Below are positions 14,916 to 36,692 of a DNA stretch of 64,000 nt, piece after piece. Source of the stretch: Kordiimonadaceae bacterium (GTDB lineage: Bacteria; Pseudomonadota; Alphaproteobacteria; Sphingomonadales; Kordiimonadaceae); contig JAEPQB010000002.1 of the NCBI GenBank assembly GCA_017640725.1, forward strand, positions 62,001 through 126,000. Reading direction: 5' to 3'. Both the position numbers and the translations under genes were made by a program. Under the pieces are notes generated by a model. That model saw only the letters and a program-made list of their open reading frames with translations, was not told where the DNA came from and did not search any database. Each line of letters opens with the position of its first letter. Positions within the stretch are counted from its first letter, which is position 1.

Positions 14916-15470
14916 TTATGCCGCTGCCGGTTCCGGCTGGACGGCATTCATATGCTGTTTCGCGACATCGAGGGCCAAGCCAGACCTGGCATCCATATCA
15001 CCTGGCTGATGCCAGTCTCGGCCTATCCGCTCCCATCTGGAGTCAAACGGATCAATGCCGAGCGAGGTCACATAATCCGCGTCCACAACGATGAACTGCT
15101 TGCCATAGGACAGCAGATAACCACCATGTTCCTGGCGTACTGTCTTGGCTTCATCATACGACGCAAGCCAAATATTCCAAAACACGTGACATCGTCTTGG
15201 GTGCAGGAATGCTTCGAACGTGGCCCCTTCGCGGCCTTCAAAACAAGCCACTACAGATTGCCAGTTAGGGAACCCAATTTCGCGTGCGATGGTGGCTAGT
15301 GCATGCTTACGCTGTGTGTCGGCGCCCAGAGCTACAGCAGGACTGCCAACCTGAAGCCTGCGCAAGGCATTAGGCTCTTCGGCGGTCGCGCGTTTCTGCA
15401 ACAGGCGCGCTTCTTCTTTTAAAAAAGTGATGATGGGCGGGGTAACGCCGCCACTTGATGTGCGTGACAT
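14916..15470 (-). CDS. Unknown soluble protein
   Basis: I do not recognise a function. The 184-residue form starts MSRTSSGGVTPPIITFLKEEARLLQKR; GGAGAGAC stands just before the ATG at 15470. Residues about 15-75 (LKEEARLLQKRATAEEPNALRR ... LATIAREIGFPNWQSVV) resemble the helical leader seen ahead of ankyrin-type proteins in alphaproteobacteria, but no ankyrin repeat follows. The later part has aromatic-rich CHVFWNIWLASYDEA and YGKQFIVVDADYVTSLG. It stands alone with its own terminator. Confidence 0.65.
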   Translation of the reverse strand: MSRTSSGGVTPPIITFLKEEARLLQKRATAEEPNALRRLQVGSPAVALGADTQRKHALATIAREIGFPNWQSVVACFEGREGATFEAFLHPRRCHVFWNIWLASYDEAKTVRQEHGGYLLSYGKQFIVVDADYVTSLGIDPFDSRWERIGRDWHQPGDMDARSGLALDVAKQHMNAVQPEPAAA

Positions 15471-15646
15471 TTCATGTCTCTCCATAAACCGGACATGTAC
15501 CGCACCATTGTGTCCTGAAGAACCATGCAATCAGCAAAGGTCATTTATTTGACTTGTCAGCAGAGTGCGTCGGCTTTTGGCGGACAGGCGCCCCTGCGGC
15601 ACCTGCCCTCCATATATGCCCCGCAATCGCACGCGTCAACTGCTTG

Positions 15647-17410
15647 TTATAGCTTGCCCATCGTCAGGGCTGGCTCTGTTCGGGTTGCTTTGTCCAATAG
15701 CGTCTTTGTGAATTCGGCTTCACCACTAAATCCAAGTTTTGCTTGTGTTTCCATTAGCCCAAACAGCGAAGCTGCGCTGTTTGGGTGACGGATCAGACTT
15801 GCTTTGAAAGCTTGTTCGGCTTCCTCTAACTGGCCGTTCAGGAAATACGCCGCCCCCAGGGTTTGTTCGGTCGCATAATACCAGAACGGAGGCTCCAGAT
15901 AGGCTAAACTATCCTGCAAATTGACGTTTTCCTGCAGAAGTTCGATCGCACCTTCATAGTTTTGCGATGCCATTAAGCGTTTGGCACCAATTGTTTTTGC
16001 AGCGATCTGAAGAACGGCAGCAGCGGGAATTGGTGCATTCTGAATGGCGGCTGACGTCGCAAGTTTCTCGATGGCTTCTTGCTCAACCCAAGCGCGGTCA
16101 TCGCCTGCATCGGCAAACACCTTACCCCGTGCGTAGTGCCATAAAGCTTTGACATAGGGTATGGCGTCACCCGGGTCTGGCAGTGCTTCCACTTCAGCCA
16201 CATCTAAAAATTCAGCATAGGCAAAATAGGGTGCGGCTTTAATGGGCGGCAACCAAGCTGCGTCGTTGGCCCGTTCCATTGGAAGCAAGTTATCGAGGAC
16301 CTGCGCATACTCAAGGGACGTCTGTTTATCGTAAGCCATTTGAGCTGATGTAAGCACAAAGTGGATATTGTGCGGATAATAGCCATACCGATAGAGGTTT
16401 GAGCCTTGCGTTTGCTCGAGATAACTGGCGTCGATTTTAGCCGCTCGGATGTTGACATCCAGACTGTCCATATAGCGGCCAATCCGGAAATAGATATGGC
16501 TCGGCATATGCACCAGGTGCCCCGAACCGATTTGAAGTTTGGCCAACCGATCAGCATGTTTTTCAGATTGCTTCACCTGCACACTGGCTTCGTACAGATG
16601 AATGTGCAGGTGAATGGCACCATAGTGGTCCGGATTTTCTGCCAGCACGCCGTTGATTGCATCAAGCGCCGTTTTAATATGGGGCTTTGCAGTTACAAAA
16701 TCTCGCTCCCAGTAGTCCCATGGCGACGTATCCATGAGTGCCTCGGCGTATAGCGTCGCGATGTCTTGGTCACCTGGATAAGCGGCAAAGACTTCGCCCA
16801 TAGCTGATGCATATTCCGCATCGAGCTGCGCTCTGCTCTTCCCCGGATCGTCGCTGTAGCGTCGCGCGCCGGCGCGAATGAGGGCTTTTTCTCTCTCACT
16901 GGCACCGCTGACCAGCGACAGCGCCCTTTTGATTGCTGCCAATGCAAGCGGGGCTGCCTCTTCTGTCATTACCGCATTAATATTGGGACCATGCGCAACT
17001 GCTTCGCCCCAATGGCAAATGGCGCACGATGGATCAAGGGCCTGCGCCACCTTGAACGCCCGAATGGCCTCAAAATGATTGAACCCATAGAGCAAGGAAA
17101 AACCCTGCCTGAAATAGGCGCGAGCTTGTTCGTTTTCACTCGAAATTGGGAATTCGCGTATGTCTAGGCCCGCCAATAGTGGCACGTCACCCACGCTTGA
17201 AGTTGATGCATTTACTGCCGTTGAAAAGAGTGACGACGGCCTGAACAGAGCGTTTCTGCGCATTCCAGACGGGCCACACAACAGTTTCGAATAGTTGGTT
17301 GGATCAAAAGCATAGTCCGCAACTTCGTGACTATCCTGTCCGGACGAAATAATTGCGTGCACAAATCCAAGCGAAGCCAAAATGGCAACCGGTGCGATAA
17401 GAGTTTTCAT
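15647..17410 (-). CDS. Exported TPR protein with a CxxCH motif
   Basis: This 587-residue protein has a signal peptide (MKTLIAPVAILASLGFVHAI) and tandem TPR-like helix pairs through most of its length, such as ARAYFRQGFSLLYGFNHFEAIRAFKVAQALDPS and GAAYFLNGQLEEAEQAFKASLIRHPNS. C129-A-I-C132-H133 (then WGEAVAHGPNIN) has the form of a c-type haem site inside a TPR turn. Other conserved-looking blocks are HLHIHLYEAS and GSGHLVHMPSHIYFRIGRYMD, whose histidines could bind metal. Function unknown. Start 17410 is taken over the one nine codons upstream because the signal peptide begins there; it lies under a hairpin (17409-17437). Confidence 0.82.
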   Translation of the reverse strand: MKTLIAPVAILASLGFVHAIISSGQDSHEVADYAFDPTNYSKLLCGPSGMRRNALFRPSSLFSTAVNASTSSVGDVPLLAGLDIREFPISSENEQARAYFRQGFSLLYGFNHFEAIRAFKVAQALDPSCAICHWGEAVAHGPNINAVMTEEAAPLALAAIKRALSLVSGASEREKALIRAGARRYSDDPGKSRAQLDAEYASAMGEVFAAYPGDQDIATLYAEALMDTSPWDYWERDFVTAKPHIKTALDAINGVLAENPDHYGAIHLHIHLYEASVQVKQSEKHADRLAKLQIGSGHLVHMPSHIYFRIGRYMDSLDVNIRAAKIDASYLEQTQGSNLYRYGYYPHNIHFVLTSAQMAYDKQTSLEYAQVLDNLLPMERANDAAWLPPIKAAPYFAYAEFLDVAEVEALPDPGDAIPYVKALWHYARGKVFADAGDDRAWVEQEAIEKLATSAAIQNAPIPAAAVLQIAAKTIGAKRLMASQNYEGAIELLQENVNLQDSLAYLEPPFWYYATEQTLGAAYFLNGQLEEAEQAFKASLIRHPNSAASLFGLMETQAKLGFSGEAEFTKTLLDKATRTEPALTMGKL

Positions 17411-17437
17411 GATGTTTCCCCAAGTTGGGGACATCAT
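17409..17437. promoter_or_regulatory. Inverted repeat over the ribosome site of the TPR gene
   Basis: ATGATGT-TT-CCCC, five bases (AAGTT), GGGG-AC-ATCAT forms a bulged dyad that covers the SD-like GGGGAAA and reaches the ATG of the TPR gene at 17410. In RNA it could hide the ribosome site. It could also be a protein-binding dyad, since CCCC-N5-GGGG recurs in larger form at 18035-18051. Confidence 0.45.
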
Positions 17438-17616
17438 ACAGCATTCAACAAAGCGCGTCTAATGGGCTAATTGAAATATGGCTTTCAGATTTGCACGTCA
17501 TCCCAGCGATCAGCGCCGGCGCCAGCATCAAATTGCATCCAGTTTGCCACCGGCACTCGATATTCGCGCAGCTCGAGCGTGGCTTTCGTTTCAATAACAG
17601 GCCCATCGGCAAATGA

Positions 17617-18000
17617 TCAAAGAAGTGCGTCCAATGCTCGTGAATGAGAGAGGTCACCAACCGGCAAGATGCACGCGCCAATATTTTTGAGGAAATCAAA
17701 CTCGCGCGCCAAACAGGAGCCTTCCCGGATTTCTTTCTGGTTCGTCACCAGCAGGAAAACATCGTGGCGATTTTGGCGATCTTGCAAGAATTGGCGGTTC
17801 CTGTGCCATAGTTCATCTGCCGAGAGCGTTAGCGCCTCGCATAACGGCAAATCAAAACAAAAACCGCCAATCTTACTTGCAACCAAGCGGTAATCGGGAA
17901 AATGTCCGATCACAGATATGCCGCTTTTCTGATTGGGTGAAGACCCAATATCGGACTGTAGTTGCGCCATAGCAACAAACCCCCGTTTCAATGCTCGCAT
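17617..18000 (-). CDS. Small unknown protein behind a GC-rich palindrome
   Basis: I recognise no family. From ATG 18000 the protein has 127 residues with no signal peptide or membrane helix. The body (GISVIGHFPDYRLVASKIGGFCF, CEALTLSADELWHRNRQFLQDRQNRHDVFLLVTNQKEIREGSC) looks like a folded alpha/beta domain. An alternative TTG at 18066 would put the palindrome inside the gene, so I prefer 18000; the ribosome site there is weak. It is not a LuxI synthase: the expected R, F, W and D pattern is absent. Position just after a LuxR remnant and the 18023-18051 dyads suggests regulation by the neighbouring LuxR. Confidence 0.55.
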   Translation of the reverse strand: MRALKRGFVAMAQLQSDIGSSPNQKSGISVIGHFPDYRLVASKIGGFCFDLPLCEALTLSADELWHRNRQFLQDRQNRHDVFLLVTNQKEIREGSCLAREFDFLKNIGACILPVGDLSHSRALDALL

Positions 18001-18022
18001 TGTTAACCTAACGCCTTCGACT

Positions 18023-18051
18023 GGAGTGAGCACTCCCCCCAAATAGGGGGG
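18023..18051. promoter_or_regulatory. Two abutting palindromes, candidate LuxR-type operator
   Basis: GGAGTG-AG-CACTCC (18023-18036) runs into CCCCCC-AAATA-GGGGGG (18035-18051). They lie 23-51 bases upstream of the ATG at 18000 on the minus strand, a promoter position. A LuxR gene and a LuxR remnant stand directly upstream. The binding protein is not proven, and I cannot match the sequence to a documented lux box. Confidence 0.5.
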
Positions 18052-18066
18052 ATAGGTACGTTCCAA

Positions 18067-18190
18067 TCAGGTTAACACCCAGGCACATATAATAGCTTCA
18101 ATTCTACTCTTAACGCCAAGCGACTTCTTTGCCCTTCAATGTGCTCACTCACCGTTTCGACACTGACTCTAAATGTTGCCGCTTCGCCAT
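18067..18190 (-). pseudogene. Remnant of a second LuxR-type helix-turn-helix
   Basis: Right after the intact LuxR stop, the minus strand reads GEAATFRVSVETVSEHIEG in one frame and KKSLGVKSRIEAIICAWVLT then TGA in another. Joined, they match the intact neighbour's EIADILDLSAHTVKEHL and TTLGVNTRIEAIVRAR. The frame break is near 18130 and would be healed by one extra G in the GGG run there. No autoinducer-binding domain for this copy remains. It is best read as the decayed 3' end of a duplicated luxR. Confidence 0.72.
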
Positions 18191-18996
18191 TACAGTGCTT
18201 TGACCTCACGCATTTTATTCACCCTGTCCGACAGGGGACTGAACCCAATGTAGTTTGCGTTTCTGGCGCGAACAATGGCCTCGATGCGCGTGTTCACCCC
18301 CAAAGTGGTTTTGGCGGCATCAAGATGCTCTTTCACTGTATGGGCACTGAGGTCAAGAATATCGGCTATCTCACGAACACTTTTGCCATGCTGCGCCCAA
18401 TTAAGACACTCACGCTGGCGCAAACTTAACGGATTTTCAAACTTGTAGTCCATCAACTTGGTGATCTCGAGCCCTCGCCGGTGGGTTGTTGTCATAATGA
18501 TGGTTAGGGCGGCCTCAATTTGCGGGCTTAGTGTTAACGACTTCCCTGCCATTGAGCCGCCACCCAATGTGCCGAATGGGCCATGCATAGGAACAACCAG
18601 ACCTTCCGTTAAGCCAAACTTTGCAGCCTCATCAAAAACATTTTGCTCCGCTTTGGTAAGTTCGAGCTGATCCATGACCCAACTCCAACGGTATGGATGC
18701 CCTACATTCTTTGAGATCCGGGCTGCCGGATCATCAAGAATAAGATTTGTTCTTTCATAATGTTTGAACCACGGGTGGCTTTCTGCGCAAACGAAGCGAA
18801 CAGTTTTAATGTGGCCGTCGGTCAGAACCAGTTGACCACACATGTAAAATTCCACCCCAAAGGGCCTCGTGTATTCAACAAATGCTTCCTCCAGTTCATG
18901 TAGAGTTCGAACCTCACCAACCAGGCTAGTAAACTCAAAAACAAGCTTCTCGTTAAACACAAAATCTCCATATCCCTTTATGCGATTGATAGCCAA
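18190..18996 (-). CDS. LuxR-family regulator with autoinducer-binding domain
   Basis: This 268-residue protein has an N-terminal autoinducer-binding domain (about 15-175) and a C-terminal GerE helix-turn-helix (about 187-245, LSLRQRECLNWAQHGKSVREIADIL ... LSAHTVKEHLDAAKTTLGVNTRIEAI). The residues usually needed for acyl-homoserine lactone binding seem present: W76, Y80, D89, P90, W104 and G132. There is no luxI in the window, so it looks like a LuxR solo. A C-terminal extension of about 22 residues follows the HTH. It diverges from the mddA-like gene, and its downstream side carries the LuxR remnant and palindromes. Confidence 0.88.
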   Translation of the reverse strand: MAINRIKGYGDFVFNEKLVFEFTSLVGEVRTLHELEEAFVEYTRPFGVEFYMCGQLVLTDGHIKTVRFVCAESHPWFKHYERTNLILDDPAARISKNVGHPYRWSWVMDQLELTKAEQNVFDEAAKFGLTEGLVVPMHGPFGTLGGGSMAGKSLTLSPQIEAALTIIMTTTHRRGLEITKLMDYKFENPLSLRQRECLNWAQHGKSVREIADILDLSAHTVKEHLDAAKTTLGVNTRIEAIVRARNANYIGFSPLSDRVNKMREVKAL

Positions 18997-19104
18997 ACGC
19001 TACTCAACAAAGTGTTGATGTTGCAAGAACTCAGTGCCCAACGAATGTTTGGTACCGCGACTTTTTGTGATAATTCTGTTCAAGGGAACCTGGGGAGCTT
19101 CACT

Positions 19105-19866
19105 ATGATCAAGAATACTTTGATTAGACTATATGGCTTAATCGCATACGCTTTGGGGCTGTTGAGCCTGATCGCATTCACGTTGTTTGCCAACAATGGG
19201 TTTGTGAATGTGGGCATTTGGTTGGATGACCCCACGTTGGGAGCTTTTTCAATTGATGTGCCCGCGCTTGGCTACACAGAGTATCCTCTCGCTTTTAATA
19301 TAGGACTTTTGCTGCTGTTCGGCCTCCAGCATTCTGTTATGGCCCGTCCCGGGTTTAAAGCAGTGTTCACCAAAATCGTGCCTAAAGCCGCAGAGCGAAG
19401 CAGTTATGTTCTTGGCACAGCCCTCGTGATTTTTGCCATGATCTTCTATTGGCACCCAATGGTCGGGCTGGTTTGGCAAGTCGATGCAGAATGGGCCCGC
19501 ACCAGCATTCATTTGGTCTATTGGATTGGCTTCCTGATTACATTTCTCGCCACGCAAATGATCGATGGTATGCATCTCATGGGCGTGAAACAGTCGTTCT
19601 CGCCAGATGACCCCGACAAAGGCACCAAAAATTTTGTGACACCTGGTTTTTACAAGTTTGTCCGCCACCCCATTCAAACCGGTATTGTCATCGCGATGAT
19701 TGCGACCCCTGACATGACGGTGGGACGCCTCACGCTTGCTATCGGCATGCTGCTGTATGTTGGGGTCGGCCTTTATTATGAAGAAAAAGACCTGATCGGC
19801 GAATTTGGCGACACGTACCGCGACTACAAACGCCGAGTGCCCGCCCTGTTCCCTAAGTTCTGGTGA
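19105..19866 (+). CDS. mddA: Methanethiol S-methyltransferase-like membrane enzyme
   Basis: MddA methylates methanethiol with SAM to give dimethyl sulfide; it belongs to the isoprenylcysteine methyltransferase (ICMT) fold. The 253-residue protein has about five membrane helices and the family blocks LLFGLQHSVMARPGFKAVF, ERSSYVLGTAL, TPGFYKFVRHPIQTGIVIAM, TPDMTVGRL and YYEEKDLIGEFGDTYRDYKRRVPALFP, which match MddA as I remember it. The ATG at 19105 has GGGGAG before it; the frame extends back to 19012 without similarity. It diverges from the LuxR solo and is convergent, stop to stop, with LysR. The substrate is inferred from family only. Confidence 0.78.
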   Translation: MIKNTLIRLYGLIAYALGLLSLIAFTLFANNGFVNVGIWLDDPTLGAFSIDVPALGYTEYPLAFNIGLLLLFGLQHSVMARPGFKAVFTKIVPKAAERSSYVLGTALVIFAMIFYWHPMVGLVWQVDAEWARTSIHLVYWIGFLITFLATQMIDGMHLMGVKQSFSPDDPDKGTKNFVTPGFYKFVRHPIQTGIVIAMIATPDMTVGRLTLAIGMLLYVGVGLYYEEKDLIGEFGDTYRDYKRRVPALFPKFW

Positions 19867-20757
19867 TCAAGCGCGCCGCCTGAAATAGTCAGTTGCATGA
19901 TCCAGGAAAGCACGTACGCGCGCACTTGTGTAGCGGCGCTCAGGGAATAGCATATAGACGTTTCGGTGATAGGCATTGAAGTCTTCAAGCACGAGTTCGA
20001 GGCGCTTTTCGGCAAGGTCATTGGCGATGGTCGAACTCAAACATAGCCCAACACCCAGTCCCGCAAGAGCCAAATCTCTGATGGGGCGCGCTGCATTGAC
20101 CCGAGCACGTGGCTCGATAGTTACCGTGGTCTTGCTGTCGTTTTCAATGAACTCCAGCTGATTGTTTGGGGAAATTGTGGACCCAAGAATGCAGTGATGG
20201 TCGCGGAGATCTGAAGGGCGCTTTGGCACCCCGTTTTCTTGCAAGTATTCTGGTGAAGCGGCGAGATGATAGCTGTACTCAGCAATCTTCTTTGCTTTCA
20301 AACTGCTGTCTTGAAGTTCGCCGATGCGAACGGCGATATCGAAACCCTCTGAAATCACGTCCACTTTGCGTTCTTCCAGTCTTAGATCAATGGTGACAGT
20401 TGGATGAAGTGCCAGAAACTCGCGCACACAATCAGACAACAGCTCTTCGCCAATAATTCTCGGGCCCGCGATCCGCAAATGCCCGACAATTTGCCCTGAC
20501 TGCTTGCCAGCAAGATCCATCAAATCATCCATCTGTTCGACCATTACGCGACACCGGTCGGCATAAATGACACCGGCATCCGTTGGATGCACATGCCGCG
20601 TTGAACGCACAAGCAGTTGTGCACCAAACTTGTCTTCAAGTTGCCTGACGTATTTACTTGCGAGAGCCGTGGAGATTCCGAGCCGTCGTGCAGCAGCCGT
20701 AAAACTGCCCTGCTCCACAACCGCCGCAAACACCCTCATTCCATCAATTGTGTCCAT
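19867..20757 (-). CDS. LysR-family transcriptional regulator
   Basis: This 296-residue LysR-type regulator has the N-terminal winged helix MDTIDGMRVFAAVVEQGSFTAAARRLGISTALASKYVRQLED and a C-terminal co-inducer domain with VIYADRCRVMVEQMDDLMDLA at the linker. It resembles the large group whose members control divergent redox or detoxification genes. It is divergent from the GST gene with 136 bases between, containing three TCAACA half sites. No ligand can be named. Confidence 0.93.
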   Translation of the reverse strand: MDTIDGMRVFAAVVEQGSFTAAARRLGISTALASKYVRQLEDKFGAQLLVRSTRHVHPTDAGVIYADRCRVMVEQMDDLMDLAGKQSGQIVGHLRIAGPRIIGEELLSDCVREFLALHPTVTIDLRLEERKVDVISEGFDIAVRIGELQDSSLKAKKIAEYSYHLAASPEYLQENGVPKRPSDLRDHHCILGSTISPNNQLEFIENDSKTTVTIEPRARVNAARPIRDLALAGLGVGLCLSSTIANDLAEKRLELVLEDFNAYHRNVYMLFPERRYTSARVRAFLDHATDYFRRRA

Positions 20758-20765
20758 TTATATAT

Positions 20766-20812
20766 TCAACATTTTGTTGATAATTAATTCCGATAATACC
20801 TAATTATCAACA
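20766..20812. promoter_or_regulatory. LysR-type operator repeats
   Basis: TCAACA-TTT-TGTTGA (20766-20780) is a short palindrome, and TGTTGATAATTA (20775-20786) pairs with TAATTATCAACA (20801-20812) as a perfect 12-base inverted repeat around 14 bases. Three TCAACA half sites result. The set lies 9-55 bases from the LysR start and before the GST promoter, the usual place for a LysR autoregulatory and activation site. Confidence 0.72.
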
Positions 20813-20893
20813 TTTCGTCCATGGCGTATCTAAGGGCAGTCGCCAGGCACAGCTGGCCCCAAAATGAAGTTAACTCAAACCAAGGACACCAAA

Positions 20894-21511
20894 ATGATAA
20901 CTCTGTACCGACATCCCCTTTCAGGTCATGCGCACCGTGTAGAACTAATGCTATCTCTACTGAAACTTGACTATAATTTAATAGACATAGACCTGCTCAA
21001 GGGTGAGCAAAAGCAGCCTTCATTCACAGCCAAAAACCCATTTGGACAAGTCCCCGTGCTAGAAGATGGAGACGTCACATTGTGGGATTCGAACGCCATT
21101 TTGATCTATCTTGCTCGCACATATGGAAACGGCGCTTGGTTGCCGCTTGACCCCGTTGAAGAAGCAAAAGTGACACCATGGCTGTCCATTGCAGCCGGCA
21201 AAATTGCCTTTGGCCCGGCCGCAGCACGTCTTGTGACCGTTTTTGGTGCTGGCCTTGACCATGAAGTGGCCAAGTCAACTGCCTATGCACTGTTTGATGT
21301 AATGGAAAAAGTTCTCGGCAACAGCCAATTCCTGGCGGGCGATAATGCCACTATCGCAGATGTAGCAGGATACAGCTATATTGCGCATGCGCCGGAAGGT
21401 GATGTTTCACTTGCCGATTATCCAAATGTACGAGCGTGGCTCGCCCGTATTGAAGCGCTAGTTGGATTTGTTCCAATGCAGGAAACCAAAGCTGGTCTGC
21501 GCGCAGCTTAA
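20894..21511 (+). CDS. Glutathione S-transferase family protein
   Basis: The 205-residue protein has the N-terminal thioredoxin-like GST domain (MITLYRHPLSGHAHRVELML, with SGHAHR in the active-site turn) and the glutathione-binding NPFGQVPVLEDGDVTLWDSNAILIYLA. A helical C domain follows, with the hydrophobic-staple motif NATIADVAGYSYI. It should use glutathione to attack electrophiles. The second ATG (20894) is chosen because the fold starts there; an ATG ten codons earlier is possible. First gene of the operon facing LysR; 23 bases separate it from the fusion gene. Confidence 0.9.
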   Translation: MITLYRHPLSGHAHRVELMLSLLKLDYNLIDIDLLKGEQKQPSFTAKNPFGQVPVLEDGDVTLWDSNAILIYLARTYGNGAWLPLDPVEEAKVTPWLSIAAGKIAFGPAAARLVTVFGAGLDHEVAKSTAYALFDVMEKVLGNSQFLAGDNATIADVAGYSYIAHAPEGDVSLADYPNVRAWLARIEALVGFVPMQETKAGLRAA

Positions 21512-36617: not shown

Positions 36618-36692
36618 TGGCTGGGGCGGCAGGATTCGAACCTGCGAATGCCGATACCAAAAACCGGTGCCTTACCACTTGGCGACGCCCCA
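36618..36692 (-). tRNA. tRNA-Gln (TTG anticodon)
   Basis: On the minus strand a full cloverleaf folds. The acceptor TGGGGCG pairs with CGCCCCA, the D arm includes GCCAAGTGGTAAGGC, and the anticodon stem CCGGT/ATCGG encloses TTTTGGT with anticodon TTG. The T arm holds GGTTCGAATCC, and CCA is encoded at the 3' end. It is 75 bases long and is the only tRNA found. Confidence 0.97.

Follow-up and report, generated by a model that had tools for sequence, protein, structure and literature searches.

A relic of a second LuxR-type helix-turn-helix behind an intact luxR solo in a Kordiimonadaceae bacterium

Directly 3′ of an intact luxR gene (18996-18190), the window, i.e. the whole 64,000-nucleotide stretch of Kordiimonadaceae DNA that was analysed, contains the last 41 of the 59 positions of a second LuxR-type helix-turn-helix (HTH), distributed over more than one reading frame. 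This remnant is very probably what is left, as a pseudogene, of a LuxR-solo paralogue that was once complete and stood in tandem. The features concerned are the following.

17617..17970, minus strand: gene X, no known family; likely ATG at 17970, longest open reading frame from 18066
18035..18051, no strand assigned: C6-N5-G6 dyad between the last luxR and gene X, conserved in three congeners; may be an operator or an RNA hairpin
18062..18182, minus strand: partial second LuxR-type HTH (the remnant), covering profile positions 19-59, from a frameshift-aware profile match and translations
18190..18996, minus strand: intact luxR solo with autoinducer-binding domain and GerE HTH (PF03472, PF00196)
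19012-19866, plus strand: methyltransferase-like protein, best NCBIfam match MddA

The remnant and its intact neighbour

The intact gene matches the autoinducer-binding family PF03472 (75.9 bits, E 3e-21, cut-off 23) and the GerE family PF00196 (48.2 bits, E 8.1e-13, cut-off 23.5), and is presumably whole and still working. Its longest open reading frame starts with TTG at 18996; the alignment of the LuxR proteins of relatives begins at about 18960, where a GTG stands, and the start may lie near that position. No luxI adjoins the gene, which makes it a LuxR solo. At a threshold of E 0.001 the genome has a single match to PF00765 (luxI), which lies at C7:11686-12189, beside another luxR and about 68 kb from the window's luxR at C7:80193. 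Aligned with CviR (3qp5) over query residues 19-244 (E 3.2e-12), the intact LuxR has W, Y, D, P, W and G residues in register, at positions taken here to be those of the ligand pocket as given in the available part of PMC4338825. This agreement suggests that the protein may bind an acyl-homoserine lactone. CviR is a LuxR-type regulator of solved structure, and the intact LuxR differs from it in lacking a luxI neighbour.

The remnant was found with a 59-position HTH profile made from five array genes of relatives, the window's own sequences being left out, to which the DNA was aligned with frame changes allowed. The score is 48.6 bits, compared with 124.9 bits for the intact domain. One thousand dinucleotide shuffles gave a mean of 11.2 and a maximum of 19.4, and none reached 48.6 bits. 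With stiffer frameshift penalties the remnant scores 44.4 and 40.4 bits, and with frameshifts forbidden its best single piece still scores 31.0 bits, where the shuffles peak at 18.7; under all four penalty settings 0/1000 shuffles attain the remnant's score. A scan of both strands of the 64 kb gave 18.4 bits as the best score outside the intact HTH and the remnant, and the intact HTH gave a sub-peak of its own of 52.2 beside the 124.9. A chance match as the source of the score is ruled out by the shuffles and the window-wide scan, and the remnant is homologous to the HTH of the relatives' array genes with frameshifts (48.6 bits) and without them (31.0 bits).

Translation shows that three minus-strand frames carry successive pieces of the HTH after 18190, with frame changes near 18135 and near 18080. 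Only 7 bases lie between the stop codon of the intact luxR and the start of the remnant match, and the first 18 positions of the HTH profile are not found in the remnant. With a sensor-domain profile made from the same five relatives, the intact luxR scores 211 bits. No sensor trace is detected in 17601-18200, where the profile gives at most 13.8 bits on the plus strand and 12.4 bits on the minus strand; chance peaks elsewhere in 15001-21000 reach 20.8 to 22.2 bits. Thus the remnant has the interrupted frame and the missing parts of a LuxR-solo pseudogene when set against its complete relatives (loci L036 and L037).

The Pfam GerE model does not detect it. Searched separately, the two pieces of the remnant give no match to PF00196 at E up to 10 and fall short of the curated cut-off of that family. 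A six-frame GerE search of the genome finds five places, and at the luxR locus it finds the intact domain alone and not the remnant. In our judgement this test is underpowered, because the pieces are only 38 and 22 residues long and the subfamily profile clearly finds the remnant. The more specific profile is held here to outweigh the Pfam null result.

The original prediction, which was made from the letters of the window, is borne out in its main point: a second LuxR HTH does lie behind the intact luxR, at 48.6 bits, with 0/1000 shuffles as high and nothing comparable in the window besides the intact HTH. It had the domain split between two frames, and the split is real, with three frames involved. 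The single break near 18130 that was taken to be the whole damage does not account for it, since there are two frame changes, near 18135 and near 18080. The placement at 18067-18190 is right in general; the limits are 18182 to 18062, the first 18 profile positions being absent. A lost sensor domain had been proposed, and no match to one is present in 17601-18200, but the loss goes further and includes about the first third of the HTH. The absence of a GerE profile hit on the minus strand between 18067 and 18190 had been named as the outcome that would refute it; taken literally, that outcome was obtained, with no hit in the separate pieces at E up to 10.

The pattern of nucleotide differences bears on the history of the copy. 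Over 36 codons, the remnant and the intact gene differ at 11 first, 9 second and 26 third codon positions, a third-position excess with p = 0.001 against an even spread, in a test based on 46 differences, some of which arose on the side of the intact gene. This predominance of third positions indicates that the remnant copy probably worked as a gene at one time. Third positions make up 46-60% of the differences in six pairs that include the remnant and 44-71% in 15 pairs of intact genes, so that the two ranges overlap. At the sites where four other copies do not vary (the second of the three G005 genes described below being left out), the remnant has changed 3/20 first and 3/27 second positions and the intact gene 1/20 and 2/27, a difference too small to lean on. 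The overall pattern is read here as long evolution under coding constraint, which would have been followed by loss.

Tandem luxR genes in relatives and the origin of the remnant

The intact LuxR finds a match at E 1e-10 or better in 61 of the 98 genomes searched, the window's own being one of the 98. Apart from the window's genome, close relatives of the protein (49%) occur in only two of the 98, with the next best genome at 33-34%. Four LuxR relatives came from a scan of named genomes, and the two nearest, both at 49%, are these same two: the uncultured Kordiimonas isolate 2-78-G (G005) and the metagenome-assembled genome Sphingomonadales bacterium MH1_Bin8 (G014), which belong to the same genus as the window's genome. 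At the syntenic locus, G014 has two complete adjacent luxR genes (L036) and G005 has three (L037:5950-8507), of which the middle one is strongly diverged (30% to the window gene). Both loci have gene X, a TPR gene, groES, a LysR gene and MddA/NnrU-like genes nearby. The gene order in G014 is that of the window; in G005 the TPR gene lies beyond the other end of the array, and there is an additional TonB-receptor-like gene. No further relic is seen in the G005 gap between the second and third luxR, where there is no profile peak of 17 bits or more.

The methyltransferase-like gene next to the intact luxR (19012-19866, plus strand) matches the NCBIfam model MddA, methanethiol S-methyltransferase, at 191 bits, which is under the cut-off of 270. 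MddA/NnrU-like genes are present in 14/19 genomes of the genus, with the window's own, G005 and G014 among them. In the other 11 of these 14, 11/11 stretches beside this gene stay at or below 20.7 bits in the HTH scan, the level of chance; three of these stretches (L067, L071, L074) end at contig ends, a second G006 match falls outside the set, and the G010 gene, only 35% alike, may be another gene.

The intact window gene can be placed within the array. A maximum-likelihood tree of 23 LuxR proteins groups it with the last array genes of G014 and G005 (96/99) and leaves the first genes outside, and its FSPLSD tail agrees with this grouping. When the two halves were placed separately with six sequences, both grouped with the genes that end the relatives' arrays (sensor 97/95, HTH 78/87). 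A chimera of two array genes was also considered for the intact luxR and is unsupported, as the halves group alike. In G014 and G005, a C6-N5/6-G6 dyad follows directly 3′ of the FSPxSD tail of the last luxR; in the window, the remnant lies in between. Since the intact gene belongs with the last array genes and the remnant is found between its tail and the dyad, the remnant is an extra downstream copy that has no counterpart in the relatives. None of the genomes examined has a complete luxR exactly here, following the FSPxSD-tailed gene, and no first-position array gene was seen in the window.

Residue comparisons were made over 36 of the 41 matched positions, with five at or beside the frame changes omitted. 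Of these 36 residues of the remnant, 21 are the same in the first G005 gene and 20 in the last G014 gene; the neighbouring intact gene and the last G005 gene each agree at 19, the first G014 gene at 17 and the second G005 gene at 12. It is no closer to its neighbour (19/36) than to the copies of the relatives (12 to 21 of 36). Assignment to one particular array gene was attempted and abandoned, since no clear parent emerges from 12 to 21 of 36 across the six copies.

The original prediction fares well here too. Its view of an old duplicate, not a recent copy, agrees with the 19/36 shared with the neighbour and the 12 to 21 of 36 shared with the relatives' copies, and the search of related genomes for adjacent luxR genes that it had called for found two complete genes (G014) and three (G005) at the syntenic locus. 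An ancestral tandem array is upheld. The simple lost pair is not, as the remnant is an additional downstream copy and not the partner seen in the relatives.

Three other explanations can be weighed against a decayed paralogue. The remnant might be a partial duplication that was truncated from the outset, a copy of just a luxR 3′ end placed before the dyad, which never functioned. The lack of any sensor trace in 17601-18200, the start of the match 7 bases past the neighbour's stop codon and the lack of a full-length counterpart in the two array relatives all fit this. Nevertheless, third positions are the most changed in 6/6 remnant comparisons, which the branch of a dead copy would not itself produce, and the remnant is not closest to its neighbour, though 36 codons give these arguments limited weight. 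A birth as a fragment is considered unlikely.

That the remnant still functions, whether through a short peptide of HTH type or by providing DNA or RNA context to the dyad and gene X, appears very improbable. The remnant does end 10 bases before a conserved dyad, and 41/59 HTH positions are still recognisable; yet it is not covered by any one frame, it lacks the first third of the HTH, and in the two array relatives the dyad and gene X occur with no remnant. An assembly or sequencing error that broke an intact second gene is hardly credible, because two separate frame changes and the missing front would all need to be explained. The 7 bases between stop codon and match leave no room for a sensor domain, and the genome is listed with 14 contigs, completeness of 100 and contamination of 0.05.

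By the preferred reading, the decay of a full paralogue, a small array of autoinducer-binding LuxR regulators would have been expanded by tandem duplication beside gene X. In the window's lineage, taken to be congeneric with the Kordiimonas isolate, a deletion would then have removed the sensor domain and roughly the first third of the HTH from the copy behind the orthologue of the relatives' last luxR, and what was left of that HTH would have drifted through at least two small indels. The complete and functional ancestor, the deletion that removed its front and the order of these events are what we infer from comparison with the relatives. Most likely the remnant is untranslated and yields no product, and it is probably without function, as no single frame would allow translation as a domain.

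The dyad and gene X

This side observation may be of more importance than the remnant itself. A search of 19 genomes of the genus, the window's own included, for C6-N4-7-G6 found the motif in 3/19, with one copy per genome, and these are the three luxR-array genomes. In these three the spacing is N5/6 and the length 17-18 bp, the dyad is the best-conserved block of the stretch between luxR and gene X, and it is situated 62 to 65 bases upstream of the likely gene X ATG, the start codons having been predicted from sequence. Gene X is present in 3/29 genomes of the family, own included, which again are the three luxR-array genomes, with the gene beside the array in every case, and in 3/59 relatives.

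The window's gene X protein matches no Pfam or NCBIfam family; one of the two proteins from relatives has a weak match to Pfam DUF364 (E 0.28, below the cut-off). A predicted model has a pLDDT of 78, and a fold search with it gave 0 matches at E 0.001 or better, the weak matches, at E about 0.2 or worse, including DNPH1-like and TIR-like chains.

Transcribed into RNA, the dyad is predicted to form a hairpin of -17.0 to -22.5 kcal/mol, and therefore a role at the RNA level is possible. An intrinsic terminator was considered and rejected, as the terminator scan does not report the dyad. The promoter scan reports no promoter-like site before gene X, and Rfam at gathering thresholds finds only a tRNA at 36621-36692 in the window.

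A lux box is an inverted repeat of about 18-20 bp that is bound by a LuxR protein, the classical form being ACCTG-N10-CAGGT. The dyad is not among the window's matches to this form at up to 2 mismatches. The whole window has 38 such matches against 22.8 expected, with at most 34 in 100 shuffles. A literature search for a lux box made of G/C runs found none, as judged by titles.

The joint inheritance of array, dyad and gene X suggests a regulator, its candidate site and its target, it being understood that their co-occurrence in three genomes counts as one inherited association and not as three independent ones. A fuller scheme can be put forward tentatively, as one that is possible and yet somewhat more apt to fail than to hold: the dyad would serve the array proteins as a lux box of an unusual kind, made of G/C runs, from which they would switch gene X when acyl-homoserine lactones are sensed, and the array would change by gain and decay of its members, the remnant representing a lost sensor. 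In any event, gene X with its conserved dyad is a possible target of the array that can be tested.

Comparison with other LuxR solos

Twin or tandem LuxR solos are known under the name twin luxR, as stated in the available part of PMC4357305. Such adjacent solos are 30-40% alike, are ascribed to gene duplication in Rhizobiales (available part of PMC4338825), and in some species are represented by a single luxR in the same context. The present case differs from these systems in that congeners of the window's genome have two or three genes in a row and the window holds a visible relic of a partial HTH. The text available from PMC10134790 describes no decay of tandem luxR genes, and no report on Kordiimonas that treats LuxR and quorum sensing together was found in the literature searched.

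In Rhizobium, luxI or luxR pseudogenes and truncated genes have been read as signs of systems being lost (PMC13133039, available part). The relic in the window differs from these degraded quorum-sensing genes in that it is too short and too broken to give a Pfam hit. On its own it would not surprise specialists and represents a sound yet ordinary case of gene loss. What the locus offers is a visible case of birth and death among tandem LuxR solos, with arrays of two and three in congeners and one gene plus a relic here, and hence a place to study the gain and loss of additional signal receptors. Neither tandem luxR genes nor their decay are new, and the window's remnant is a further example.
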